From Methanosarcina barkeri 3 (GTDB lineage Archaea > Halobacteriota > Methanosarcinia > Methanosarcinales > Methanosarcinaceae), in NCBI RefSeq assembly GCF_000970305.1, contig NZ_CP009517.1, forward strand, positions 124,001 to 188,000: a DNA stretch of 64,000 nt. The letters run 5' to 3'. Every line of letters begins with the position of its first letter. The stretch's first letter is position 1. This document shows, in pieces, positions 23,443-47,254 of this stretch. The position numbers and the translations under genes are program-made. The notes beneath the pieces were generated by a model. That model saw nothing but the letters and a program-made list of their open reading frames with translations, ran no database searches and had not been told where the DNA came from.

Positions 23443-23663
23443 AAATTTCATCAATTCCAACCTACTTTATATACTTGATAAGTACCAGAACTTCTTTTGA
23501 GTCCTGTATTCGGAATTTCAGTTTAAATCTGTTTGAACTCTTTTTCCAAAAGAGTAAATTCTTAAAAAAGTTCAGGCAAATTTCGCCCTCCGAGCAGGCT
23601 TTCAAGGAAAAAGTATAAGAACAAAGAGCACTACTATTGCTCCTGCAACATAAGCTACATCGT

Positions 23664-23704
23664 GCGAGAGTTGCCCAGCCAGGTCAAAGGCGCTGGATTC
23701 AGAG
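23664..23704 (+). pseudogene. Detached 5' half of a tRNA-Leu(CAG) gene, cut at the anticodon loop
   Basis: The 41 nt match the resident tRNA-Leu at 23752 base for base over the acceptor, D-arm and first 30 nt. It then has its own anticodon stem CTGGA and loop TTCAGAG, after which the sequence becomes unrelated. The missing half with the complementary TCCAG stem lies at 41634-41684. Joined at the loop they give an 85-nt tRNA, the same length as the intact gene. It is a tRNA gene interrupted by an integrated element. Confidence 0.85.
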
Positions 23705-23751
23705 TTTAACATAGAGGACTATATTTTATTCAACAGTAAACAAACCAACAT

Positions 23752-23836
23752 GCGAGAGTTGCCCAGCCAGGTCAAAGGCGCCAGATTCAGAGTCTGGTCT
23801 TGTAGGAGTTCGTGCGTTCGAATCGCACCTCTCGCA
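23752..23836 (+). tRNA. tRNA-Leu, anticodon CAG
   Basis: The 85-nt gene has acceptor GCGAGAG/CTCTCGC with discriminator A, anticodon stem CCAGA/TCTGG enclosing loop TTCAGAG (anticodon CAG at 23788-23790), a long class-II variable arm and T-arm GTGCG/CGCAC with TTCGAAT. CCA is not encoded. A TATATTTTATT box lies about 30 bp upstream and T6 follows the gene. It is just inside the left end of the 17.9-kb element and probably replaces the split copy at 23664. Confidence 0.95.
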
Positions 23837-24018
23837 CTTTTTTTAATTACTTCTATGCTTTTATCTAATTCTTTAAGTTTCTTATTCTATATTTAAGGCA
23901 TATAATAGTTCACGTAGTCTTCAGGGTTATATTTTGAGAAGGAGAATAGACATGTTATATAACTTTGGAACTATTATAAAAAATAACAATTATATATAAT
24001 AGTCAAATAAACAAGATT

Positions 24019-24402
24019 ATGAAAATATGCAAAAGTTGTAATGGACAATATGAAGAGAAACACATATTTTGTCCAAAATGTCACAAAATCCTTTATCCTG
24101 ACGTATCTCCAAAAGTTGCTCTTAATAAAACACATCTAGAGCGAGAGCCTCAGTACGATGACTGGGATCCACCATCTCCTACAACCATATACTGTAGAAT
24201 CAAAAATATTCCCTATGAAGTTTTCAAGTACAATAGAGCAAAAGGACTATATTCTCTTGGGCCGCGGAGAGTTAGTGATTAGCTGAGGAAAAAAGAATAC
24301 TGTTGCCTCACATGTTCATATTACTTAGGGCCGGAATGCACCCTTAAGGGAAGAGATGTTTTCCCAAAGTCTATTTGTAAATCTTATGAACCTAAACCTT
24401 GA
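24019..24402 (+). CDS. Zinc-ribbon protein with an in-frame amber (UAG) codon
   Basis: From ATG 24019 the first 87 codons encode a protein opening with a zinc ribbon (CKSCNGQYEEKHIFCPKCHK). At 24280-24282 there is a TAG. The same frame continues for 39 more codons to TGA at 24400, encoding a second cysteine-rich motif (YCCLTCSYYLGPEC, then SICKSYEP) of protein-like composition, with no start codon of its own. In Methanosarcina UAG can be read as pyrrolysine, so the full product may be 127 residues with pyrrolysine at 88. Otherwise the gene ends at 24282 or is decayed. Function unknown. Confidence 0.6.
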
Positions 24403-24479: not shown

Positions 24480-27400
24480 TTACTCTTTTTCGAACCCATG
24501 ACTATTAAACTTCAGCGTCCTGCTGTTTTCAGTAACTATTCTTACAACATTATCCGGAACTCCTGATAGAGTCTCTGCTTCAATTTCCAGGGTCACTGTA
24601 ACCTTGGAGCCGAGCAAACCTACTAGGTGAGAGATTACTTCATCGGCTATTTTTCCAGCATCACGACCTACACGGGCTGGATCAAGAGTTACACTGCCAT
24701 AGAAACGTTTTGGAGGCTGTTCTACAGGTTCTATGACTGTAATTACAGCTCCGTTCCCTGTTACCACTGCTGTTCCTGTATCTGTAGTGTTTCCACCGGA
24801 TACTATATATGGTTCCCTCGGATCCACAACCTCTCCTGAAGGAGTAGGTGGAATTACCACAGGAGAAGGAGTTTCTGCTTTCTGCTGATTTAAAGCCACA
24901 TCTGACTTCACCAGCAAGCCTGAAAGGTTATCCTCGGTAAGTGTCAAGAGATGCCCACAGCGAAGTCCACGGTAACGTTTTGCTGTTTGGTCAAAACTAT
25001 CGGCGTAAGTAAAAGAGTCGTCCAACCATGAGATCAGGTTGTTCCCGTCACAAACTGCACGTACTAGCACTGAAGGTCTTACCAGCCTGGGAAGGTAGAG
25101 ATAGGATGCAAAATCCTCTGCCAGCTGCTTTACTGAAACATTATCCCCACGCCAGAGAGGAATTCTATCAAGCTCCATGCGAAGGCGTGTACCCGCAAGA
25201 GCTGTTATTAGCAATTCCTCATTTTTGAGTTTCTTGCTGGCTCTAACTGCGAGAGGATCCTGGCCTGTAAGTCTGATAGACTGCCACTCTATGGAAGACT
25301 GTGGATTTACTTGCACAGGCACAAGAAGCCACAGATATGCCTCTGGAATCCGTGCTGCTACCGTTTTGTCTGCAGAATCTCTTTGACTCTGGGCTTGCTT
25401 TACCTGATGAGGAGAAAGGTCGAGTATCTCTTTTTCTCCGAGAATTGACTCCCATGCAAGGTATTTGCGAACTGCTTCATCAAGATCCTGCAAGCGCGTC
25501 TTATCAGCTGCAAGGAAGACAAGGGTATTGCGATATTGACGAGGGTTACTGCCACGGCTTTCAAAAATTGCTCTCGAAGCTTTTTCAGCTCCGTTTCCTG
25601 CTTCTTTAGTATAAGTGTGGTCAATTCCAAGCACTACAAGACGTGCATCCAGATCATCAGGAATATCAGCACTTGATGTAGGAAGAGGGTGCACACGACT
25701 GAAGTCGCCTTGATGGCGAAGGTCAGCACGCAGTCGTTTGTCAAGCTCCTTTACTACCTTGTCAGGATCGCGCTTAAGCTGCTCTGCACGGTCTTCAGCC
25801 AGTTTGGTGACCGTGGGTTGAGTAGAGTACCAGTAGCGAGGGCCGTCTTGGTAGAGGTATGTTGCTGAAGAGGACAGCCTTCTGAGAGCATCTCCAAAGA
25901 CTGCAGGAGACTCGCCAGGCATTACGCATCCAAGTTTCACTCTTCTGTCCTCAAGACCACGGTTAGCAGCGGTCAGAGTAGGAGCAGAGCCTAGATAAAT
26001 AGTACGTGCTACGCGGCGGCAGGCAGAGAATTTACCTAGGTTAGGCACTTCTGAGTCGATACGCAGAGGTAGAGAACTGGAGCCATCTACATCTTTTTCG
26101 ATAATGGGAGTCCAGTTGTCTGAGAGATAACGGGTAAGCTCAGTCTGCACACGCGTATCTTCTATAGGAATGTTTGCCGGAAGGATGAGCGGATTTTTGT
26201 CCCCTTTTTCCCAGAGGCTATAGATAACTGCAGCCATAAGGCGCAGTACCCCTCTTGTGCGCTGGAACTTCACAAGGGTAGACCAATCAGTATAGAGCCT
26301 GTCAAAAATCTCCGGATGAATCGGATAAGCTGCTTTTATGCGTTTTTCGTAATCAGAATCCCGGCATTCGGGAGGGAATTCCTGGCTCTGGGAGCGGTAG
26401 AGCTCAACAAACTCGCGAGCCACAACATCCCTGTCTTTATACTGGGAAGGATCAGTAATTGGTTCAAACAACCGTCTGCGCACGATTTCAAACCCTTCTT
26501 CTGCACTTGCAGGTCTCCAGGAAGATTCCAGCCGCCCTACAACATTTCGAAGCCTTTCAAGAGCTTCTCGACCACGCTGACCTCCCACTTCTACGTCGTC
26601 AACCTGAGAGTTAAGAGAAGTAGCAGTGTCTGAAGCTGGCAGACTGATAACAAGCAGACAATTTCTGGCAAGCTTTGCAGATTCAGTAAGAGCCTGGGCA
26701 AAGGTGAATTGAGTTTCAAAACCACCTGCAGGTAGGTCGCTCTGGTCATGGAGCTGGCGGGCATAAGCTACCCATTCATCAATGAGAATAACGCAAGGCC
26801 CATATGTGTTGAAAAGTTCGCGTAATACGTCACCAGGGCTTGTTGCTTTTTCGTCGTCTGCTCTTACACGTTCGTATGCCTCTTTTCCACCAAGCTGCCA
26901 GGCAAGTTCACCCCAGAGAGTATGTATGACTGTCCCATCGGATTTTGTTGCAGGATTTCCGGGGGAGATTTTGTTTCCCACAAGAACTACACGCCTTGCA
27001 TGTGGAATCTTGGGAATTCCGGCTTCCATTAGTACGCTTTCAATTCCCGGAAGCTCATTTCCGCTAACGTTTTTAGAGAAGAGGTGGTAAAGTGCCAGCA
27101 TAGAGTGAGTTTTTCCTCCCCCGAAGTTTGTCTGAAGCTGGACAACAGGATCTCCTCCCAGCCCTGCAATGCGCTGCAATGAGCTTACAAGGAGACCTTT
27201 AAGGCTTTCAGTAAGGTATGTACGCCTGAAAAATTCAACAGGATCTCTATATTCGTCCGTCCCTTCCCCAAGGTGAACCTGCCAGAGGTCGGCTGCAAAC
27301 TCAGCCTGCTGAAAGCGTCCGCTTGCAACATCATGGTGGGGAATGACGACTTCTCTCCAGGGTTTGAGGCTGCTGGAAGCACTTTCGATCCCTGTTCCTG

Positions 27401-27860
27401 AGTTTTTGCGCCTTTCGTTCCTCACCTGTTCATCAAATATTACCCGGCGAAGCTCCATTTTCATTTTGTGAACTTCATCAGCCTTTGGGGAGGAAATTGC
27501 TGCCAGTAATCTTTCTGTCGAGTCTAAAGCCCTGTCTGCGTCGTCGCTTGAGAAAGGCTGCTGATGTGCCCATTTATTTCTCACATCCCTGAGCTCACTT
27601 ACCAGAGTTCGTTCGGAAAAGCCTAGAGTATTGCGGAAAACATCATTCCAGGTATCCCACATGAGCTTGAAAAGCCCTGCTGCGTCAAGGTCAGAAATGG
27701 GCTTTCCTGCAAAGATCATGTCTCCGCCCAGGACTTGAGCTACCTTTTCTCGAGCTTCTCCCTGATAGACATTTTCCATCTCTCTCTCAACATAAGGCCC
27801 AAGATCTCCTTTTAGCAGTTCCAGCGCTTTTCCCACACGTTCGCTGTTGCTCATTGACAT
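24480..27860 (-). CDS. BrxC/PglY-like AAA+ ATPase with DUF499 and N-terminal Swt1-type HEPN-like domain
   Basis: The 1126-residue protein has an N-terminal helical domain (1-120) with an R-x4-H motif (RNKWAH, residues 95-100) like Swt1-type HEPN RNases. Walker A is NFGGGKTHS at about 245-253 and Walker B is CVILIDEW at about 356-363. A long DUF499-type region follows, then a C-terminal tail. DUF499 proteins include PglY/BrxC of BREX systems. Its start is 2 bp after the methylase stop, so helicase-methylase-ATPase form one operon. It probably acts as an ATP-driven part of a defence system that distinguishes modified DNA. No PglZ is present in the window. Confidence 0.85.
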   Translation of the reverse strand: MSMSNSERVGKALELLKGDLGPYVEREMENVYQGEAREKVAQVLGGDMIFAGKPISDLDAAGLFKLMWDTWNDVFRNTLGFSERTLVSELRDVRNKWAHQQPFSSDDADRALDSTERLLAAISSPKADEVHKMKMELRRVIFDEQVRNERRKNSGTGIESASSSLKPWREVVIPHHDVASGRFQQAEFAADLWQVHLGEGTDEYRDPVEFFRRTYLTESLKGLLVSSLQRIAGLGGDPVVQLQTNFGGGKTHSMLALYHLFSKNVSGNELPGIESVLMEAGIPKIPHARRVVLVGNKISPGNPATKSDGTVIHTLWGELAWQLGGKEAYERVRADDEKATSPGDVLRELFNTYGPCVILIDEWVAYARQLHDQSDLPAGGFETQFTFAQALTESAKLARNCLLVISLPASDTATSLNSQVDDVEVGGQRGREALERLRNVVGRLESSWRPASAEEGFEIVRRRLFEPITDPSQYKDRDVVAREFVELYRSQSQEFPPECRDSDYEKRIKAAYPIHPEIFDRLYTDWSTLVKFQRTRGVLRLMAAVIYSLWEKGDKNPLILPANIPIEDTRVQTELTRYLSDNWTPIIEKDVDGSSSLPLRIDSEVPNLGKFSACRRVARTIYLGSAPTLTAANRGLEDRRVKLGCVMPGESPAVFGDALRRLSSSATYLYQDGPRYWYSTQPTVTKLAEDRAEQLKRDPDKVVKELDKRLRADLRHQGDFSRVHPLPTSSADIPDDLDARLVVLGIDHTYTKEAGNGAEKASRAIFESRGSNPRQYRNTLVFLAADKTRLQDLDEAVRKYLAWESILGEKEILDLSPHQVKQAQSQRDSADKTVAARIPEAYLWLLVPVQVNPQSSIEWQSIRLTGQDPLAVRASKKLKNEELLITALAGTRLRMELDRIPLWRGDNVSVKQLAEDFASYLYLPRLVRPSVLVRAVCDGNNLISWLDDSFTYADSFDQTAKRYRGLRCGHLLTLTEDNLSGLLVKSDVALNQQKAETPSPVVIPPTPSGEVVDPREPYIVSGGNTTDTGTAVVTGNGAVITVIEPVEQPPKRFYGSVTLDPARVGRDAGKIADEVISHLVGLLGSKVTVTLEIEAETLSGVPDNVVRIVTENSRTLKFNSHGFEKE

Positions 27861-27862
27861 TT

Positions 27863-30745
27863 TTATTCCTCCTCAACAAGGTGTGTTTGCCCTTTTGGCA
27901 GGACTTTCTCCTCTCTTGAAAGCCTCATAATTTCAGGCCAGCTCTGCACCAACGAGTTGTAAGCAAGTGCTTCCTGAGCCCGTTTTTTACGCTCGCAAAG
28001 AGTGTATAATAGATAAGCGAGTTCCCTTGCTGTATCAGCTTTGCTTCCGAGTTTTGCCACCATTTCAGCAGCAGCATTTTCCCCGCCGGCTTCAAGCACG
28101 CGGATAAGGTGATGTACTATTTCCCATACTGTTAATCTGGAATCTGTAGCTGGATCCCAATCTTTCGGAAGCTCTTCAGGTTTCAAAAGGCGTACTTTGC
28201 CTCCTTTTGAAGTTAAAATCCCAGCTTCAACCATTCCAGAAACGCTGGTATTCTTTGCTTTAGAGAGCGTTTCAGCAACTCCATACTCACTCTCTGCAAA
28301 TCCAAACTGCTCGAACCATGCAAGAGCCCATCGACTGTCTGAATCAAAATCTCCTTCCTGCTCGGCTAGCACTTCGTCCAATGTCTGGTTAATAAGTGTG
28401 AGAGCTTCGCGTACAGAGAGAGCTTTGCCCTCAGCATCAAGCACTTTTGAATAGCGAGTATAGATCGCCATTCCGGGGCCAATTGCTGCTTGTTGTAAGT
28501 CTACAGGAGCTATATTTCCACGTTGGAGATGTTTGAGTGCAATTGGTAGCTCTGATTTGAGTGCATTAAGAAACTCTCGGCGGGTAGCTGTAGGGGCATT
28601 TTCATCACGTTTACGGCAGACGAGAACGATACTGGAAGCAAGGGTATTGGTACCAGATCGTTCCAGAGTTCTACCTTTCATCTCTGTACGCATTGGCCAA
28701 GTACCTGTAAGGGTAAAACCCGCTTGGATAACTGCATTGAGGAAAGTTTCCCAACCCGTAGAGACAGTACCTTCTCTTTCTGTTTCTGATTGCTTGAAGG
28801 CGTAGTAAATTGTAATCGGGAAGTTTGGATGCACTTGTCCAGCTAGCATGTGCATGGCTTGTGTCATGCCAGCCAAGAAAAAAGCCTCTGCATTTTCCTT
28901 ACTTCCATGGCGGTAAGGAGAGGCTACAAGTTCTTCAGCCTTTGGCACGGCAAGTGTGGCGAAAATATTAGGGAAAAATGGCTTCAAAGAACGACGTAGC
29001 CAGACATAGAAAAAGTCCGACAAGTCGGCATAGCCGATGTTGTCATAATATGGAGGATCTGTAGAAACGACCTTACAGTTACTTATTGCTTGATTAGTAG
29101 CATCCGATTGACTAGCAAATCCCTTGATTTGAGAAGGCAACTGAAGAAGTACCTGCCTATTTTGCTCAATGGAGTTTAGGAAGTTCCCGGAAGTTTCAGA
29201 AAAAGGATTTCCTTCCATAAAATCCCATACCATTGGAATGGCTTGTCTTGCAAACACAGACGTTATTTTTTCTCTAGAGGTGTCATGAGTTGTGATGTTT
29301 GACCAATAAGAAGAGATACGACTTATGGAAATGCTGAGACATGCTGCAATAGCATCTGCATAAGCTTCCGCATTCGTACCACCATTGTTTAGACTCAGAC
29401 CATCGTCAGATATTCCTGCCATGAGTGCATCTTCTTTCACTTTTTCGTGCACTTCTTGTACTAGATCTGAAAATGTTGTAAGAGCCACAAGCTGGCGGGG
29501 AGTAAAGAGATGATTAAAATGCGTAAGGCCATATAGAGGAGTGAACATTGACCGGCGATCAGGTGGGATTTCAACGTTCGGTTCCCAAATTGGCTGTGCC
29601 TGGCATGCAATTGTTTCCATATCTGGTGTTGGTGGTAGGTACACACGACCACGATCACCTTCAGCCACAATAGCCATCATCCGTGCACCAATGCGTCCAG
29701 CCACTCCCTCTGCCTTAATATAATCTGGTTTTAGTGGTGCTCCTGACATTAAGCATTTAAAATTAGCTCCCCTTGCAAGCTTAGTACCGTTTTTAGCTGC
29801 GTCTAAATCTTTTGGTTTTCCCATTTTCACTGTAAAGTAATAATTGTCACCCTCAATAACAGGCTCAACATAAGCCTGTTTACCTGGTTTGGCGCAAAGC
29901 ATAAATTTGGAAGTGAGAGGTACTTTCACATGCGCAAATGCAGGATTTGGGCTTTTCACTGTACGTGCCCAGAGCCACGCAATAACTGTAAGTTTTTGCC
30001 CAATGTAAGCTTTCAGGTCAGGCCTTTCTTGTATCATTTCTTCTGTAATCTCAACTTTTGGGTAGAGATTCCCAATTTTCTTTTCTGCTTCGTCGCGCAT
30101 CCACTTCCCATAATAATACACATCCTCTGCCAATCCTTTTGCACCTTTCCAACTCCCTGAAGTTATTTCCTTTTGCTTTCTGGATTGAGGGTTTATCGGT
30201 GGATTGCCTGCGAATTTTGGCGGAATCTCGATCATTACCTTGTTTATGAGCACAGCTACAGGATTTAGGTCTGAGGCATAAGCCTCCAGACCCAACCTCT
30301 GAGCTTCCAGAGGAATAGAGCCACCCCCTGCAAAGGGATCATGGAAAGAAGGTAGTTTATCTGGATTAAAGAGTTTTACTGCTTGAGGGTCTTCTTTGTT
30401 TTCTTCACAGATGGTACGCCAGCTTTTCCAGATTTCTTTCCTTGCTTGGTTGAGCACTTTTTCATTTGTGGTATTCTCCCACTGAACAAATTCCTCAATA
30501 ATCCGGAAGAGGCGCTGTCTTTCCTGTTCCTGTGACTCTTCTGTAGGGAATTTTTCTGGGTGCTCTGAAGGATCGTCTATCATCTGGGCAAAGATCACGG
30601 CACGGGCTGTAGCAGTAGGTTTTCTCGACCACCACAAGTGCAGGGTACTGGGGTGTCCGTGACGGATAGATTTTTCTCGTACAGAGGCTTCGTTGATAGC
30701 CTTCAGGGGGAGGGCAACTTCGATAAGTTTCTTTTTATAAGCCAT
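27863..30745 (-). CDS. DUF1156 adenine-specific DNA methyltransferase (COG1743, PglXI-like)
   Basis: The 960-residue protein starts with the DUF1156 segment (LKAINEASVREKSIRHGHPS, then LHLWWSRKPTATARAVIF). SAM-binding motif I DPFAGGGSIP is at residues 136-145 and catalytic motif DPPYYDN is near residue 565. These families are predicted N6-adenine methylases and occur as the modification subunit of BREX type 3 (pglXI) and related defence loci. The target sequence is unknown. It lies between the helicase (80 bp upstream) and the DUF499 ATPase (2 bp downstream). Start ATG 30745; the motifs are intact, with no sign of decay. Confidence 0.9.
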   Translation of the reverse strand: MAYKKKLIEVALPLKAINEASVREKSIRHGHPSTLHLWWSRKPTATARAVIFAQMIDDPSEHPEKFPTEESQEQERQRLFRIIEEFVQWENTTNEKVLNQARKEIWKSWRTICEENKEDPQAVKLFNPDKLPSFHDPFAGGGSIPLEAQRLGLEAYASDLNPVAVLINKVMIEIPPKFAGNPPINPQSRKQKEITSGSWKGAKGLAEDVYYYGKWMRDEAEKKIGNLYPKVEITEEMIQERPDLKAYIGQKLTVIAWLWARTVKSPNPAFAHVKVPLTSKFMLCAKPGKQAYVEPVIEGDNYYFTVKMGKPKDLDAAKNGTKLARGANFKCLMSGAPLKPDYIKAEGVAGRIGARMMAIVAEGDRGRVYLPPTPDMETIACQAQPIWEPNVEIPPDRRSMFTPLYGLTHFNHLFTPRQLVALTTFSDLVQEVHEKVKEDALMAGISDDGLSLNNGGTNAEAYADAIAACLSISISRISSYWSNITTHDTSREKITSVFARQAIPMVWDFMEGNPFSETSGNFLNSIEQNRQVLLQLPSQIKGFASQSDATNQAISNCKVVSTDPPYYDNIGYADLSDFFYVWLRRSLKPFFPNIFATLAVPKAEELVASPYRHGSKENAEAFFLAGMTQAMHMLAGQVHPNFPITIYYAFKQSETEREGTVSTGWETFLNAVIQAGFTLTGTWPMRTEMKGRTLERSGTNTLASSIVLVCRKRDENAPTATRREFLNALKSELPIALKHLQRGNIAPVDLQQAAIGPGMAIYTRYSKVLDAEGKALSVREALTLINQTLDEVLAEQEGDFDSDSRWALAWFEQFGFAESEYGVAETLSKAKNTSVSGMVEAGILTSKGGKVRLLKPEELPKDWDPATDSRLTVWEIVHHLIRVLEAGGENAAAEMVAKLGSKADTARELAYLLYTLCERKKRAQEALAYNSLVQSWPEIMRLSREEKVLPKGQTHLVEEE

Positions 30746-30824: not shown

Positions 30825-33800
30825 TTAAATGGGGTTTCTGCGTATTGATATGGGGGGCAATGCTTCAGCAGTATAATGCCGCATCTCCTCCGCTCTTGAC
30901 AGCAGTTCTGCAAAGTCATAGTTTACACTTGTCACCCCGAAATCAGGTTCACGCTGGAAGGGATGGCGGAGGTAGTGCACGTGGTGATTTTCATCAGACA
31001 TGAACTCGACGATAGCCAGGATGAAGTCATCCGGTTTATTAAGAGAGTAGAGGATCTCATTTTTAGTAACTGTAACGGTCTTTGCGCCAGAAACCCTTCC
31101 TTTTACTTCAATGAATCGCAGCTTCCCTGTACCTAAAACGCGGCTTTCTATATCGTAACCGAGTTTCTCAGTCTCGCGGTCAATAGGATCAAAGCCGAGG
31201 CTGCGTTCTATATCCATCACAATGGCACGCGCACGGGCTGCAGAAGCCTGGGTATCTATCGGCTGCACTGGTTCTGGAAGAGGCTTTCCAGTCATTTTTG
31301 CAATCAATCCTGCTGGCACTACCAGAAGCCCACCAAGAATCACAGGAGGAAGCGGAGAAATCTGTCTCTCCAGTCTCAGTTCTTCCATACGCTTTTCAAG
31401 GCGAGCCTGCAGTGCATCTGCACGTTTGCGGGCTTCCCCTGAGTTAAGCCTGGCATTGGGCTTGCCTGCCTGCTCCTGAAGCTTCAATTCTTCAGCTCTG
31501 TGATCCCAGTAGTTTATCTCTTTTGTCAGCCGGTCTTTTACTGCTGCTTCTGTCTTCTCAATTAGTTCCAGTTTGCGTGAACGGATCTCTTTAAGGTGTT
31601 CCGGTACAACATAAGCAACGGCATGTCCCTGAGCCTTCTGCTCAAGTTCCCGGCTAATCCATGAGCACTCTGGTCTGGCAAGAAGCTCTTCCACGTGAGG
31701 TTCATCAGGTCTGAGTGGACGATAGTCAAGATAAGGTGCATAGTGTATATGCCTGGTATTCCCTGCTGAGTCCAGTTCTACGTACAGCATACGCTTAGAA
31801 ATGATACGCCTTTCCCCTGAACGGGTAAGGTTTGCATCCTGAATGGCATGTTCAAGGTAGAAAAGAACACGTGGGTTGATTCCCGGATCGCGCTCGTCTA
31901 CAAGTATAGTTCCTCTGCGCAGGAGGTCTCTGTGACGTTCCAGCGTAAGATCTATGGTAGAAGCGAGCAGCGGGTGTCCAGGACAGACAAAGGCTGCAAG
32001 AGGCTGTCCCTGAGGTGCAACAAGCGATTTTTCAAAAGCAATTCTTTCGTACCTCGGCAGTATCGGCTCACCCGTACCAATCATGCGGTCGCGGTTTCTG
32101 ATAGGTGCTGGCACATAAGTAATTTCATATCTGCGAGGCTCACGCTGTTTGACAGAACCTCCAAGGCGCTGGAAAGCTTCAAGGAAAAAGGATTCAATGT
32201 AATGTGGTTGAAGCCTTCTAGCCTCAGCCCGTTCCATATCCTCACGGATACGGTATACCCGGCTTGCATCCATTGCGTCGTGAGCAAGAGCTTTCTCTTC
32301 CAGCAGATCCTGGAGATGGTTTTGGTCGAAGGCATTAGATATTACCTGTGTAAGTTTAGCCCTCACATTAGGTTGTTCACCATAACGAATTGCTTCAATC
32401 AATAGTTCACGCAGTGGTTTGCCATCAAACTGGAGTTTTCCCAGAACATCAAAAACTTGACCTCCAAGTGCCTGCCGTGCCTGTTCTAGTTTTAACAGCA
32501 GTGTTCTGTATACGTCACCTTCTCGGGTTTCTTCAGCAACCAAGTTCCAGAGATGACAAACTTCGGTCTGTCCTATACGATGAATACGGCCGAAACGCTG
32601 CTCTATACGATTTGGATTCCACGGAAGATCATAATTGACCATCAGATGAGCACGTTGCAGGTTGATACCTTCTCCAGCCGCATCAGTTGCCAGAAGTACC
32701 TGGACTTCAGGGTCGTGCTTGAAGGCTTCCTGTGCCTTCATCCTATCCTCACGCCCCATGCCACCGTGTATGGTCACAATGGCTTCCTCTCTTCCTAAAA
32801 GGGTACTGATACGTTTCTTCAGGTATTTCAGTGTGTCTCGGTGTTCAGTGAAAATTACCAGCTTCTGGCGCGGGGAAGATACAGGCCTGGGGATTGGCCT
32901 TGATCCATAAGGTGTCTGCTCTTCAGCGGCGCGGTCGACAATGGGCGCCAGAGTGAAGATTTCTCCAAGCAGGCTTGCAAGTTCACGCCATTTTTTGTCC
33001 TCCCCACTACGATAAACAGTATCAGCGAGGGCTTCCAGATGTTTCAGGGTCTCAATCTCTGCTTTCAATTCTGTAATAGTGCGGGCTGCAGTTGCCTGGT
33101 CGAGGATCTCCTCCTCAACTGTTTCGACCTCACTGTCAGGTGCATCTTCCAGGTCTTCTACGTCTTCTGCGTCAAGCACTGCTCCTTCGTATACAGAAAC
33201 CTGAGCTCCTCTCTGGAGCAATTCCATCTCACGCAATCGTTTTTCCAGGCGTTCGTGACGGCGACGCAGTGATTCGCGGATTGCCTCAGGAGATGATGCA
33301 AGACGACGCTGCAGGATGGTTAGTGCAAAGCCAACTGTCCCCGCTCGTTTGTCGTTCTGAAGCGCTTCGGCGCGGTCAAATTCATTTCGCACATAATCAG
33401 TAACTTCCCTGTAAAGCCGTGTTTCTGCATCCGAAAGCCTATAAGGTACAGTATAAGCAATGCGCTCAGGGAACAGAGGCGTTGCATCAAACTTGAACAA
33501 TTTTTCCTTTACCATCCGACGCATCAGATCAGAAACGTCTGCTGTATGGACTCCATCACGGAAACGTCCCTCAAAGCGGTCTCCGTCCAGCAGAGCCATA
33601 AAGAGCTGGAAGTCTTCCTCTTTCCCATTGTGTGGGGTTGCCGTCATCAAAAGGAAGTGTCGTGTCAGAGTAGAGAGTAACTGCCCAAGCCTATACCTTT
33701 TTGTGTACTTAATTTCGCCGCCAAAAAACGTTGCTGACATCTTGTGCGCTTCATCGCAGACTATCAAGTCCCAACGGCAGTCTGGAACTTTGAGCTTCTC

Positions 33801-34448
33801 CTGTATATTTTCATTGCGTGAGAGTTTATCCAGCCTTGCAATAACCAAGTTTGTCTCCAAAAACCAGTTGCCTGTGCGTGCAGCTTCAAGCTTGTCATTA
33901 GTAAGAATCTCAAAAGGAAGATTAAAACGTCGGTAAAGCTCATCCTGCCACTGTTCAGCCAGACTTCCAGGACAAACAACAAGGCAGCGATGCAGATCTC
34001 CTCGGGCTATCAATTCTTTCATTAGGAGTCCAGCCATAATCGTCTTCCCAGCTCCTGGGTCATCTGCCAGCAGGAAACGCAGAGGCTGTCGAGGCAGCAT
34101 TGCATCGTAGACAGCTGTAATCTGATGTGGAAGCGGATCAACCATTGAGGTATGCACAGCAAGAACCGGATCAAACATGTGTGCCAGACGGATTCGATGA
34201 GCCTCCGAAACAAGCCTGAAAAGACCTCCGTCCCCATCGAAACTCCAGGGTCTTCCCTGCTCAACAACTTCAATTCTATTTTCGTCATGACGATAGAGAA
34301 GTTCATTGGCAGGCTTACCTTCAGGAGTTTTATAGGTAAGATCAAGGGCTTCTGAACCGAACCAGTGTACGTTTATGACTGTTACCAGACAATCTGAAAG
34401 AATACCTCGCACTGCTGCGTTTGGTCGAAGGTCTTCAAGTTTACTCAT
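30825..34448 (-). CDS. SNF2-family helicase with C-terminal NOV_C (DUF3883) nuclease-like domain
   Basis: The 1207-residue protein carries Walker A DDPGAGKTIMAG at 129-140, the DEAHK box, motif III MTATPHNGK, and C-terminal helicase motifs TDAAGEGINLQ and QRFGRIHRIGQT. A coiled coil (about 950-1020) follows. The C-terminal domain has GYDIES and RFIEVKGR, a D...ExK arrangement found in NOV_C/DUF3883, which belongs to the PD-(D/E)xK-like fold. It resembles the helicase of BREX type 3 and DISARM-like systems (BrxHII/DrmD type). First gene of the defence operon. Probably translocates on and perhaps cuts unmodified invading DNA (inference). Confidence 0.9.
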   Translation of the reverse strand: MSKLEDLRPNAAVRGILSDCLVTVINVHWFGSEALDLTYKTPEGKPANELLYRHDENRIEVVEQGRPWSFDGDGGLFRLVSEAHRIRLAHMFDPVLAVHTSMVDPLPHQITAVYDAMLPRQPLRFLLADDPGAGKTIMAGLLMKELIARGDLHRCLVVCPGSLAEQWQDELYRRFNLPFEILTNDKLEAARTGNWFLETNLVIARLDKLSRNENIQEKLKVPDCRWDLIVCDEAHKMSATFFGGEIKYTKRYRLGQLLSTLTRHFLLMTATPHNGKEEDFQLFMALLDGDRFEGRFRDGVHTADVSDLMRRMVKEKLFKFDATPLFPERIAYTVPYRLSDAETRLYREVTDYVRNEFDRAEALQNDKRAGTVGFALTILQRRLASSPEAIRESLRRRHERLEKRLREMELLQRGAQVSVYEGAVLDAEDVEDLEDAPDSEVETVEEEILDQATAARTITELKAEIETLKHLEALADTVYRSGEDKKWRELASLLGEIFTLAPIVDRAAEEQTPYGSRPIPRPVSSPRQKLVIFTEHRDTLKYLKKRISTLLGREEAIVTIHGGMGREDRMKAQEAFKHDPEVQVLLATDAAGEGINLQRAHLMVNYDLPWNPNRIEQRFGRIHRIGQTEVCHLWNLVAEETREGDVYRTLLLKLEQARQALGGQVFDVLGKLQFDGKPLRELLIEAIRYGEQPNVRAKLTQVISNAFDQNHLQDLLEEKALAHDAMDASRVYRIREDMERAEARRLQPHYIESFFLEAFQRLGGSVKQREPRRYEITYVPAPIRNRDRMIGTGEPILPRYERIAFEKSLVAPQGQPLAAFVCPGHPLLASTIDLTLERHRDLLRRGTILVDERDPGINPRVLFYLEHAIQDANLTRSGERRIISKRMLYVELDSAGNTRHIHYAPYLDYRPLRPDEPHVEELLARPECSWISRELEQKAQGHAVAYVVPEHLKEIRSRKLELIEKTEAAVKDRLTKEINYWDHRAEELKLQEQAGKPNARLNSGEARKRADALQARLEKRMEELRLERQISPLPPVILGGLLVVPAGLIAKMTGKPLPEPVQPIDTQASAARARAIVMDIERSLGFDPIDRETEKLGYDIESRVLGTGKLRFIEVKGRVSGAKTVTVTKNEILYSLNKPDDFILAIVEFMSDENHHVHYLRHPFQREPDFGVTSVNYDFAELLSRAEEMRHYTAEALPPISIRRNPI

Positions 34449-35694: not shown

Positions 35695-38600
35695 TTACCC
35701 CCACTCCCATTCACAGAGTCTTTCGGCTTCGTCTAGTAAAGTTTGATATCCTAACACCTGTTTATACCCAGGATATCTTCTATTAAACTCATCCAATAAA
35801 CTTGGAATATTATCAACAGAAAAATTATGTCCATCACTCACCAATCTTTTTAAGTCAGCTCTGAAAGATCTGATGTATTCTAAGTTTTTTACACTGTATT
35901 CTTCATTTTGTTGCTCAGAGATTAGCTTTTTTTGTTTCAGGACAGGCTCGTCTACGTATCTGTCCTGCAAGCCTGTCCTATCGCTTATGCTATCGAAAAA
36001 ATGCATTTTAGGACAGGCTTCAAGGTTATTTGTTAGTGAGTTTTCTATTTTATTTGCATTTTCGTCTTTTTTGTCCGTCACCTCTGTGTAAAAAACACAA
36101 GAATGACAGTATGGTTTATTTACTAGACAAGTTTGAGGAAGGGGTAAAGCCTGTCCTGCCTGTCCTAATTGCATTTTTTCGGCATCAGTTGCCAATAAAA
36201 AACTAGGACAGGCTTGAGTGTCTTTTTTCCAATTAAGCCTGTCCTGAGCCTCTGGAATGAGGGCTATATTGCACCAGTATGTAACTTTTTTTGTGCAGTT
36301 TGTGCCGGGTTTGTTATCTCTGTAATTCTCATAACCGAGTTTTTTAAGTTCCTTCCCCCACTGGTTATAAGCTGTTGCGTTTTTGTTACTGACCTCAGCC
36401 CATAACGTGTATGTACTGTAAAGAATTATAGCATCTATATCTCCCTGGCTTTCTTTTGTGCATTCATCCATAAAAGCAGCTATCGGATTACTATTAAACT
36501 CATATTCTCTTTGAGTATCTTCTACAGATTTATCGTTTGAAAATTTCCCATTTTCTTTAAGTCTCTTCAATCCTTGGAGAGCAAGATTAAGAAAGCCTGA
36601 AAGTTCTTCAGGATCTTTCAGCTTCGTAATTAACGTTTTATCTTCCTTCCCTCCTTCAAAATTATTAGGAAACTGAACTAAAACCCATCTGCGATAATAT
36701 GCCTTGTCTTTTTTTCCTTCAGGCAACACATTTGCGGAGAAAACAAGTTTAGCGGTGTTGCGGAAATGAAAAGAGTCCTGATATTTATTCTCCCCATCGA
36801 TCAGATCTAGTCCGCTGGTCAACTTTTTGAAGACTTCCGATTTATGCATTTTGCTATCTGGAATATCTCCACAAATGTTAACCAGCTTTCCGTATAGTTT
36901 TGCGGTCCTATACTTGTCGAATTCAAGTCTTTGCAGGCTCTCCGCGGAGGTATTTTCTCCGCCAACAAGCGCCTCTAACAATGCAAGAAATACACTTTTA
37001 CCGTTAGAACCGACACCATAAAGCATGAAAGCCTTTTGATGAGAGCAATCTGTGGTTAAACAATAGCCTGCGATCTCACACAGCAAATCTATATCCGGCT
37101 CTGCAACTACATCATGTAAAAACTTGCTTATTTGAGGGCATTTTGCATCTTCATTATAAAAAACAGGAATTTGCCTGATCAATTTTATTTCCGGTGTGTG
37201 GGGTTCAAGTTCCCACGTTTCAAGATTGAAAAGCCCGTTTTTCAGGTTGATATATCTATCCTGGTTCTCTTCTATACTGTCGCGTGTAATGTGAGTATAA
37301 GCCCTGATATAAGCCAGCACCTCACTTACATACTTTGCCGTAGCTTTTGGAACATGAGTTAAAGGAAATCCGGGATTTGCTTCATTCCAATATTTTGCAT
37401 AATATTCATTGTGCACATTTCTGATTTCAGTATCTAAAAGTGCTTCTGTGTCTTCGTTCTTGTAAACACCGTCTTTGTAAAGATATATTTGCTTATTATC
37501 CCTCATTGAAAAAATATGGGCGTTCTCCAATATATGCTCTGCAACTACATCGAAGGGAACGTTTATCTTTTCTGGTTTACCTTCACGAATTTTCTGTTTC
37601 CTTTTCTTTTCTTTTATTGGCTCTCTTCCAGTCTCAATTCCTTCCTTTTTGCAGTCTTCCAGAACCCTGTTATAAATAGATACGGGAAGCTTCCAGCCAT
37701 CGGTAATTTCTTCTTTCGTGCATAGCTCCCGATTCAGTGCACAGTAAATTAATGCTTTGGAGGGTATAGGATCACTTTTTGGAATGTATCCATGATCTTT
37801 AGCATATTTCCAGATAGTAAACTGAGTATAAGGGTCTTCTACGTCTACTCTTGAACTTCCCCCGCCATGTGGAAAGCCAGCCTGGGAACATGTAGAAACT
37901 CCAGAGGCTACCGCCAGATAAGTTATAGCGTTATGGCTAACATTATGCCGCCAACAGTGCAAAACATCCCCAGAAATGCTGGCATTTTTACCCGTTTCAG
38001 AACCGTGTAACTCAGCGAACATTTCAAAACGTTTGCCTGGTTGGTTGCTCCTTCCAGTCACATCATGTATATCCAGATCAAACAGAGCGCTTCTATTTTT
38101 TTGGCCCTGCCGTTCCCAGCTTTTACACTGCCTTTTTTCTATTTTCTTTATACTGGCAGCAATTTCAGTGGCTCTTCTTTCTTCGAGAGTTGTCCTGTAT
38201 ATTTCCGGTAGTTCTTCATAAGTTATGTTTGAGACCTCAGATTCTAAACATAACCTGTACTTTCCAGCATGTATACGGTCTTCTTCTGGAATCCTGCGAA
38301 TCTCCTCTTCTGAACAAGGAACAAAAGACCCCGAACAAACAACATATTGCCAGTTTGAGCGAACTTCTCCAGCGTTTTCTGTTGCTATGTTCTGTTTAGC
38401 ACTATTTTTAAATATTGCACCTTCTCCCTGCGCTGGTTCATCTTTAGTAAAATAAAAACAATGCCTCCCGATTTGTTTTCTGGATTTTACTGTTAAAGTT
38501 GTTTTAGCTCCCCCTACTGCTTCCAGATTGTCTATGTCAACTATGCAGAGGTTATCTTTATCCGTGCCTGCAATACCGATATTAAACCCTTCTCTCATCA

Positions 38601-38778
38601 GGCTATAAGCTTCAGAAAATGTTTTTCTATTTTTCTTCCAGCTTATTCCAGGCAGTGGATCTTTTCCGTTTTTAACAAGCGGAAAATAAAAAGGTTGATA
38701 ATCCGGGTTGCCTTTCGTTAAGAGTTGATGGAACTTTTTAAACTCTTCCGGATCTGTATTTACTGCAGGGAGGGACAT
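35695..38778 (-). CDS. Primase-helicase replication protein (AEP prim-pol plus D5/P4-type SF3 helicase)
   Basis: The 1027-residue protein starts with an archaeo-eukaryotic primase/polymerase-like domain: Asp81/Asp83 in CIVDIDN and a GRHCFYF strand near 104-110. A zinc-finger-like CWRHN segment is at about 275, and the N-terminal D5 region at 400-560. The SF3 helicase has Walker A YGVGSNGKSVF at 587-597 and later VNICGDIPDSK and KLVFSANVLPEG. Such proteins initiate replication of plasmids and viruses. It lies in a minus-strand cluster with at least three small genes upstream. Its C-terminal 200 residues are variable and low-complexity. Confidence 0.9.
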   Translation of the reverse strand: MSLPAVNTDPEEFKKFHQLLTKGNPDYQPFYFPLVKNGKDPLPGISWKKNRKTFSEAYSLMREGFNIGIAGTDKDNLCIVDIDNLEAVGGAKTTLTVKSRKQIGRHCFYFTKDEPAQGEGAIFKNSAKQNIATENAGEVRSNWQYVVCSGSFVPCSEEEIRRIPEEDRIHAGKYRLCLESEVSNITYEELPEIYRTTLEERRATEIAASIKKIEKRQCKSWERQGQKNRSALFDLDIHDVTGRSNQPGKRFEMFAELHGSETGKNASISGDVLHCWRHNVSHNAITYLAVASGVSTCSQAGFPHGGGSSRVDVEDPYTQFTIWKYAKDHGYIPKSDPIPSKALIYCALNRELCTKEEITDGWKLPVSIYNRVLEDCKKEGIETGREPIKEKKRKQKIREGKPEKINVPFDVVAEHILENAHIFSMRDNKQIYLYKDGVYKNEDTEALLDTEIRNVHNEYYAKYWNEANPGFPLTHVPKATAKYVSEVLAYIRAYTHITRDSIEENQDRYINLKNGLFNLETWELEPHTPEIKLIRQIPVFYNEDAKCPQISKFLHDVVAEPDIDLLCEIAGYCLTTDCSHQKAFMLYGVGSNGKSVFLALLEALVGGENTSAESLQRLEFDKYRTAKLYGKLVNICGDIPDSKMHKSEVFKKLTSGLDLIDGENKYQDSFHFRNTAKLVFSANVLPEGKKDKAYYRRWVLVQFPNNFEGGKEDKTLITKLKDPEELSGFLNLALQGLKRLKENGKFSNDKSVEDTQREYEFNSNPIAAFMDECTKESQGDIDAIILYSTYTLWAEVSNKNATAYNQWGKELKKLGYENYRDNKPGTNCTKKVTYWCNIALIPEAQDRLNWKKDTQACPSFLLATDAEKMQLGQAGQALPLPQTCLVNKPYCHSCVFYTEVTDKKDENANKIENSLTNNLEACPKMHFFDSISDRTGLQDRYVDEPVLKQKKLISEQQNEEYSVKNLEYIRSFRADLKRLVSDGHNFSVDNIPSLLDEFNRRYPGYKQVLGYQTLLDEAERLCEWEWG

Positions 38779-40453: not shown

Positions 40454-41569
40454 TTACTGTTTTTCACTAAATTTTTTTACTACATTTAAAAGTTCTAGCA
40501 TCACCTCATTATCAATCTGTCCCAAAGCTTCGGTTTTTACGTCCTGTACTTCTACAGCAAGCTTGTGATCAAGAATCATCGAACATATGTAACAGTACTT
40601 TGCACCTGCCGGGTTCCTTGTCTTGCACCTGGTGCATTCAACAGGTTTTAGTTCTATGTCTCTTTCATCACTGTCATCTTCAACAATGCCATTCTTAGCA
40701 AGTAGTTTCTTTTCTATATCAGCTCCTGAGAGATGCAAATAAGTTGCAGGCATGTTACTTTCTTTAGTCCAACCTGCAAATATCCTTAACTCCATCTCGT
40801 TAAATCCTCTTTTAGCAAGATCTGTTAAGCGTCCATGCCGGAATGCATGAGGATAAACATTCTTTTTTATCCCGGCTTTGTTTGCGAGGCTGTTTAACAT
40901 GTTGTTTACTGTCTGCTCGTTGAGCCTCCGGTAATTTCCATTATACTTTCTATCTGTAATAAACAAAGGAGCACTGGGGTCATCTCGGAGAGGATGCATA
41001 TTTAGATAAAGCTGCAGGTCTGGAACGCTATCAATAAGCCTTATTCTTCTTTTTCCTGTTTTGCCGTCAACTATAACTGTAGCCCCGTATTTGTCAGGCT
41101 GGATATGCCCTATATTAATGTTCAATAGCTCTCCTTTTCTTGTTGCAGAATCCCAGAGTACCATAACTAAAGCCCTGTCCCTCTGATTGTTTGCAGCATC
41201 CCGCAGAGTCAGGACATCCGCAGGCAAAAGAACTTCATCGACAGGCAAGTTGTTTTTGGGTTGCTTGCTTTTGATTCCTGTAAAAAAGTCATTATCAGGT
41301 TTTAGCCATTGAAAGAAAGTTCTTAGGGTTAAAAAATTATTATGCACAGTTGTTTCACTGCATGTCTTTTTGCGGTGAATAATGAAATTCTCTATATCCT
41401 TCTTCTTAACCGTGTTAAGGGATTTATTTTTCATGAACTCAACAAATGCCTTTAATCTCCACTGTTCGCCAAGAATTGACTTCTCTTTCTTTCCGGCTAA
41501 CGTAGCATGACGGATATAGTCATCAATAATTTCTTTGTTTTTTCCTGTAAATTCTGGGGGGTTTTTCAT
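40454..41569 (-). CDS. Tyrosine recombinase/integrase with C-terminal zinc ribbon
   Basis: The 371-residue protein has a SAM-like N-terminal core-binding domain (1-95) and a catalytic domain with Arg144 (ATRKGE), Lys172 (DGKTGKRR), His241-x-x-Arg244 (HAFRH), Trp267 in the second His position, and Tyr277 (ATYLHLSG). An extra C-terminal zinc ribbon, CTRCKTRNPAGAKYCYIC at 312-329, is unusual for integrases but known in archaea. Its start lies 64 bp from the right-end tRNA half, the normal place for an integrase next to its att site. It probably inserts the element at the anticodon loop of tRNA-Leu. Confidence 0.93.
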   Translation of the reverse strand: MKNPPEFTGKNKEIIDDYIRHATLAGKKEKSILGEQWRLKAFVEFMKNKSLNTVKKKDIENFIIHRKKTCSETTVHNNFLTLRTFFQWLKPDNDFFTGIKSKQPKNNLPVDEVLLPADVLTLRDAANNQRDRALVMVLWDSATRKGELLNINIGHIQPDKYGATVIVDGKTGKRRIRLIDSVPDLQLYLNMHPLRDDPSAPLFITDRKYNGNYRRLNEQTVNNMLNSLANKAGIKKNVYPHAFRHGRLTDLAKRGFNEMELRIFAGWTKESNMPATYLHLSGADIEKKLLAKNGIVEDDSDERDIELKPVECTRCKTRNPAGAKYCYICSMILDHKLAVEVQDVKTEALGQIDNEVMLELLNVVKKFSEKQ

Positions 41570-41633: not shown

Positions 41634-41684
41634 TTCAGAGTCCAGTTTCGTAGGAATTCGTGCGTTCGAATCGCACCTCTCGCA
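41634..41684 (+). repeat. tRNA-Leu 3' half no. 1 (right end of the 17.9-kb element)
   Basis: This 51-nt segment starts at the anticodon loop TTCAGAG and runs to discriminator A. Its stem TCCAG pairs perfectly with CTGGA of the 5' half at 23693-23697. The T-arm and acceptor strand CTCTCGC are intact. Compared with the resident tRNA, the variable arm reads GGAATTC instead of GGAGTTC. Confidence 0.9.
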
Positions 41685-41719
41685 CTAAACTTTACCTCTT
41701 TTGATAACCGTATTCTCAT

Positions 41720-42406: not shown

Positions 42407-42496
42407 AGAGAAAATGATTCTGCAAGGCATAGAGTATTATAAACCTTACTCTTTTACTGCATAAAGAATATATAGTTTAAATTGTAAGAAACGAAT

Positions 42497-42817
42497 ATGA
42501 CCGGGGAACCTAACAGACCATCTAACACCGTACCTATGAAAATTCTATGTAATATGGTTCTAATCCCTGACAGAAAAGATGAAGTAGAATATTTCACCGT
42601 TGACAGTAGAGGATACCCAACCCCGACGAAAACCGTATATGCAAAAAAGGAAGCTACAATAATTGTAGGCCACAGAGAACGAAATAGTCTTATAGTTACA
42701 CCTCAGGACCGCGTGTTTACTGGCGTTTTTGGGAGTAATGGGCGTCTGTCTTCCGTGGGAAAAGATTTAGAAGGGCAGGAACTTACGGTTATTGTGCATG
42801 TTCCTGAAGAAAATTGA
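42497..42817 (+). CDS. 106-aa protein of cassette B with AbrB-like C-terminus
   Basis: The protein is beta-rich. Its last 30 residues (GVFGSNGRLSSVGKDLEGQE, then LTVIV) resemble the hairpin of AbrB-like or transposon-associated DUF2080 proteins. The paralogue at 46934-47254 has equal length and differs mainly in the middle. It is the largest gene in the cassette and lies next to the right tRNA half. Possible roles: DNA-binding regulator or recombination directionality factor (both inference). Confidence 0.7.
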   Translation: MTGEPNRPSNTVPMKILCNMVLIPDRKDEVEYFTVDSRGYPTPTKTVYAKKEATIIVGHRERNSLIVTPQDRVFTGVFGSNGRLSSVGKDLEGQELTVIVHVPEEN

Positions 42818-46915: not shown

Positions 46916-46933
46916 GTCTACTATCTAAAGAAT

Positions 46934-47254
46934 ATGACTGGAGAACCTAAGAGACCATCTAATACAGTACCCATGAAGATATTATGTAGTATGGTGATAA
47001 TTCCGAATAGACATGATGAAGTAGAATATTTCAAAGTGGATTCTAAGGGATACCCTATGCCTAAAAAAACAGCATATGCAAATAAAGAAGTAACTATTAT
47101 AGTTGGACACAAGGAGCGAAATAACCTTATGGTTACACCTCAGGACCGTGTATTTACTGGCGTTTTTGGGAACAATGGGCGTCTGTCTTCCGTGGGAAAA
47201 GAATTAGAAGGGCAGGAACTTACGGTTATTGTGCATATTCCTGACGAAAATTGA
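46934..47254 (+). CDS. 106-aa protein of cassette D with AbrB-like C-terminus
   Basis: It is the paralogue of the 42497-42817 product: the same length, identical PSNTVPMKILC and nearly identical last 45 residues (TPQDRVFTGVFGNNGRLSSV). Substitutions cluster at residues 22-65. Conservation of length and of both ends argues for function rather than decay. No family is firmly recognised. Confidence 0.7.
   Translation: MTGEPKRPSNTVPMKILCSMVIIPNRHDEVEYFKVDSKGYPMPKKTAYANKEVTIIVGHKERNNLMVTPQDRVFTGVFGNNGRLSSVGKELEGQELTVIVHIPDEN

Follow-up and report, generated by a model that had tools for sequence, protein, structure and literature searches.

The amber gene and its integrated element

The window, by which we mean the whole 64,000-nucleotide stretch analysed here, contains at 24019–24402 of the forward strand a frame that opens with ATG at 24019, runs for 87 codons to a TAG at 24280–24282, and continues for a further 39 codons (24283–24399) before closing at a TGA (24400–24402). 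Re-reading this frame confirms the preliminary description of it, including the lack of any start codon (ATG, GTG or TTG) in the 39 codons that follow the TAG. The read-through product of this ‘amber gene’ is 127 amino acids long, with the amber at position 88 and the motif YCCLTCSYYLGPEC. Its N-terminus carries a zinc-ribbon-like CxxC...CxxC segment (residues 4–21) and its C-terminus a domain that we call ‘WDPP-Cys4’ (residues about 46–127), the four invariant cysteines of which (96, 99, 107 and 120) are all located 3′ of the TAG. Upstream, an A+T-rich, TATA-like stretch (23985–24018, forward strand; ∼20–35 nt from the start codon) has a counterpart at a comparable position in each of the two closest orthologues and may represent a promoter; all three genes have the same start context, ATGAAAATATGC.

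The open extension is in itself unremarkable, since 28% of random frames drawn from the window remain open over 39 codons when only TAA and TGA are counted as stops; judged from the sequences, it is homology across the TAG that exceeds chance, not the length of the open frame. Codon-usage scoring leaves the gene indistinct from background, both before and after the TAG. An AlphaFold2 model of the protein is poor (mean pLDDT 55), and searches returned neither a Pfam or NCBIfam match above curated cut-off nor a significant match in the PDB; no relatives were found in phage, plasmid and viral collections.

Consistent with the earlier proposal that the gene is carried on mobile DNA, it sits within a 17.8-kb element integrated at a tRNA-Leu(CAG) gene (23752–23837, forward strand), which provides the attachment site at the element's left end; a copy of the tRNA-Leu 3′ end (41634–41685, forward strand) is the probable right attachment site. 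Moving rightwards from the amber gene, we see a series of genes on the reverse strand: tail-to-tail with it, an HmaC-like ATPase (Swt1-like HEPN, DUF499; 24480–27860), then an HmaB-like DNA methyltransferase (DUF1156; 27863–30745), an HmaA-like SNF2/DEAD helicase (30825–34448), the element's D5_N/DUF5906 primase-helicase-like protein (35695–38778) and its tyrosine integrase (40454–41569). The surroundings of the attachment site are themselves repetitive. A second 5′ half of tRNA-Leu(CAG) is present at 23658–23705, 88 bases upstream of the intact gene, perhaps as a remnant of an earlier integration or duplication. Copies of the tRNA-Leu 3′ end occur at five places between 41634 and 50666, the probable right attachment site being the first, and suggest several elements stacked in tandem. 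Two of these segments contain repeated ORFs of 106 amino acids (42497–42817 and 46934–47254) that are 82% identical over a 300-nt repeat (42490–42789 and 46927–47226).

The helicase, methyltransferase and ATPase together make this a complete HmaABC locus: PADLOC matched HmaA, HmaB and HmaC with bit scores of 1717, 1545 and 1184, respectively, covering most of each profile. The amber gene matched no PADLOC model and is not itself an Hma member. Both orthologues from genome G137—L103 and L104—are likewise arranged tail-to-tail with the same HmaC-like gene; elsewhere in the family, G004 and G055 each have a near-full Hma locus whose examined flanks lack the companion, indicating that one lineage of Hma loci conserves it without its being a core part of the system.

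Homologues spanning the amber codon

L103 and L104, from a genome of the same family as the window host but of another genus, are exactly 127 amino acids long, collinear with the window protein, and 69% and 68% identical to it; after the TAG, 8 of the 39 residues differ. Codon 88 is CAC (His) in L103 and TAT (Tyr) in L104, and a change from TAT or TAC to TAG requires just a single base. The homologue search proposed in the preliminary description therefore yields one 127-aa family that spans the TAG, with sense codons at position 88 in its orthologues. That description had also held that homologues ending at the TAG without the second motif, or variants with TAA or TGA at this position, would speak against read-through; we saw neither.

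More widely, a search of 100 genomes, among them the one that contains the window, matched the read-through protein in 40, and a family profile built from eight sequences, the window protein being one row, found matches in 78 of 238 genomes of the class. Against the window, that profile matches across the TAG at 1.6e-34, a value to be read with the window sequence being one of its eight rows. Most matches begin at residues 26–50 of the window protein and extend to its C-terminal end, and thus define one domain of ∼80 residues that spans the amber, with the pattern WDPPxPxT...NIPY...L...YCCxxCSxY...C...ICKSFxPK. At site 88 other homologues have mostly Arg or Lys, but also Asn, Tyr and Leu; among the matches listed, only the window copy has a TAG inside the domain. 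The suggestion of a 127-aa protein in which pyrrolysine at position 88 links two metal-binding motifs is thus upheld as to the length of the family and its passage across the TAG, but the ‘second motif’ belongs to a single domain begun before the amber, of which it forms the C-terminal half, such that pyrrolysine would lie within this domain and not between two motifs. The N-terminal CxxC...CxxC segment is common to Methanococcoides-type relatives, whilst most Methanosarcina genomes encode the domain as a fusion with TPR repeats. One relative of the domain protein (L047) is found between genes that, by eye, are BrxL-like and Cas1-like, suggesting an association with defence islands beyond Hma.

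A second amber occurs within the family: the TPR-fused orthologue L021, from another Methanosarcina genome (G021), has a TAG mid-repeat, followed by ∼100 conserved codons; the corresponding codon is GAG in L008 and GAA in most relatives. This TAG is the sole premature amber among the 29 fused orthologues tallied, in which we found no clean premature TAA or TGA; a further fused orthologue, L007, ends early and lacks the tail motif. The L021 amber is independent of that in the window, and two such events fit a tolerance of UAG in the genus, the number being too small for a test.

The possibility that the TAG is a sequencing error or strain polymorphism, codon 88 really being TAT or TAC, is best weighed here. 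Within the collections searched, the amber at this site is seen in one genome only and lies a single base from either tyrosine codon; the assembly, on the other hand, is a single contig judged 99.99% complete, and the family has its second in-frame amber in an independent genome. We consider this explanation very improbable.

Decoding of UAG and the state of the gene

Methanosarcina reads UAG as pyrrolysine. The 4.56-Mb genome contains tRNA-Pyl (pylT, detected by ARAGORN) together with PylS, PylB, PylC and PylD, each over NCBIfam curated cut-offs, and so the complete pylTSBCD set whose presence the preliminary description had left to be checked is in place. In a 464-kb sample of the genome, TAG terminates 22 of 344 ORFs, and 9 of the 215 with at least 200 amino acids; ORFs in this sample that continue past a TAG include trimethylamine and dimethylamine methyltransferases (mtbB/mttB-type). 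The pylB gene itself (L045:9002–10117, reverse strand) ends in TAG; the published pylB stop is TAA in M. barkeri and TAG in M. mazei, M. acetivorans and M. burtonii (PMC2933860). PylS is also encoded by G137 and by all six other relatives checked, some of which have sense-codon copies at site 88.

As the host makes charged tRNA-Pyl, insertion of pyrrolysine at UAG would compete with termination. Termination at codon 88 would leave an 87-aa product devoid of every invariant cysteine and thus destroy the C-terminal domain. The main rival to continued production of the complete protein is a fresh pseudogene, in which the protein is cut short at the amber, what remains has no activity, and the gene has become unnecessary to the element. 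The gene looks dispensable, given the Hma loci of G004 and G055 that lack the companion in the flanks examined, and an amber introduced into M. acetivorans gave mostly terminated product, with only 20–30% incorporation of pyrrolysine (PMC2933860). Set against this, the amber is the only lesion in 127 codons, the start context is conserved and the post-TAG segment is constrained, retaining the positions that are invariant in a five-sequence alignment. Comparison with L103 and L104 gives dN/dS values of about 0.14–0.16 before the TAG and 0.20–0.21 after it, and about 0.06 after it for the L103–L104 pair, all from small counts; at polarised sites, the window branch has 5 amino-acid changes in 41 before the TAG and 2 in 22 after. 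Relaxed constraint after the TAG is thus not clearly visible in these alignments, though a very recent mutation would leave none, and in that event neutral tolerance and early decay would look alike. On balance, we think it unlikely that the gene is already dead.

Nor do we see much to recommend a functional or regulatory pyrrolysine, by which full-length protein would be made mainly when tRNA-Pyl charging is high, as in growth on methylamines, so switching the Hma companion. With all four invariant cysteines past the amber, read-through would be all-or-nothing for the domain, and decoding of UAG in Acetohalobium does vary with carbon source (PMC8211752). Yet the amber is conserved in no homologue that we have seen; pylS-bearing relatives use His, Tyr or other ordinary residues at the site, which gives no support to pyrrolysine having a function there, and around the amber we found no PYLIS-like Rfam match and a fold z-score of only −0.20. 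We regard such a role as improbable, and quite improbable the specific proposal of a decoding switch in which the companion's cysteine domain is made only with abundant charged tRNA-Pyl; were it true, it would couple a mobile defence module to growth on methylamine. The idea of a tie, through the amber, between the element and Pyl-decoding hosts is weak and finds no support: the orthologues with His and Tyr reside in a pylS-bearing genome, and the element's other genes of >100 amino acids, all closed by TAA or TGA, contain no in-frame amber, giving little reason to think that the element depends on such hosts.

The explanation we favour, and consider likely, is that an intact companion gene underwent a lineage-specific sense-to-amber substitution and that, UAG being ambiguous, it still yields some full-length protein containing pyrrolysine; a state tolerated rather than selected. 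The ancestor would have been a normal companion gene of the Hma system, 127 codons long and carried on an integrated element; one of its sense codons, specifying a variable position in a helix (a tyrosine TAT or TAC, cf. L104, being one base away), would have become TAG, recently, in the window lineage. A fraction of translation would then continue to the full-length protein, with pyrrolysine at residue 88, and the remainder would stop at 87 residues. We infer both expression and read-through of the gene; since the host can read UAG as pyrrolysine, some rounds of translation probably still produce the complete 127-aa protein. The amber would be tolerated because UAG is ambiguous in the host, whilst the neutrality of the change is suggested by the relatives without it; most likely, then, the amber is an evolutionary accident and does not reflect a need for pyrrolysine.

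Relation to known amber genes

The amber gene shares an in-frame TAG and the host's decoding system with MtmB, MtbB and MttB. In these methyltransferases, however, the amber is conserved and pyrrolysine occupies the active site, whereas the amber gene has no known active site and its amber lacks the conservation across Pyl-decoding hosts that marks a required pyrrolysine. The in-frame amber transposases of Methanosarcina resemble it in being amber genes on mobile DNA of Pyl-decoding archaea, and have relatives in Methanococcoides burtonii that lack the amber (PMC2933860); they differ in that their amber is conserved within the transposase family, while that described here is unique to the window copy. 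As for the candidate virus-defence system Hma (HmaABC) defined by PADLOC, three neighbouring genes match its components, the amber gene itself falling outside the models; of the Hma loci seen in the family, only some have such a gene alongside. The cysteine domain to which the gene points is uncharacterised and occurs across Methanosarcinaceae, in one form next to Hma defence genes.

The closest likeness is to Thg1, the tRNA-His guanylyltransferase of M. acetivorans, which is reported to have acquired, by neutral evolution, an amber that is not essential for activity (PMC2933860). The two proteins are unrelated, ours being the product of an accessory gene on an integrated element, and pyrrolysine has been physically observed in Thg1 whereas in the amber protein it is expected from the host's decoding; but in both an amber is present in one species of a Pyl-decoding genus and homologues carry sense codons. 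The amber gene would add a clean sense-to-amber case in a Pyl-decoding archaeon, with an orthologue one base away, on an integrated element and in a protein without known link to methylamine metabolism; cases of this kind are relevant to how the ambiguity of UAG persists in Methanosarcina.
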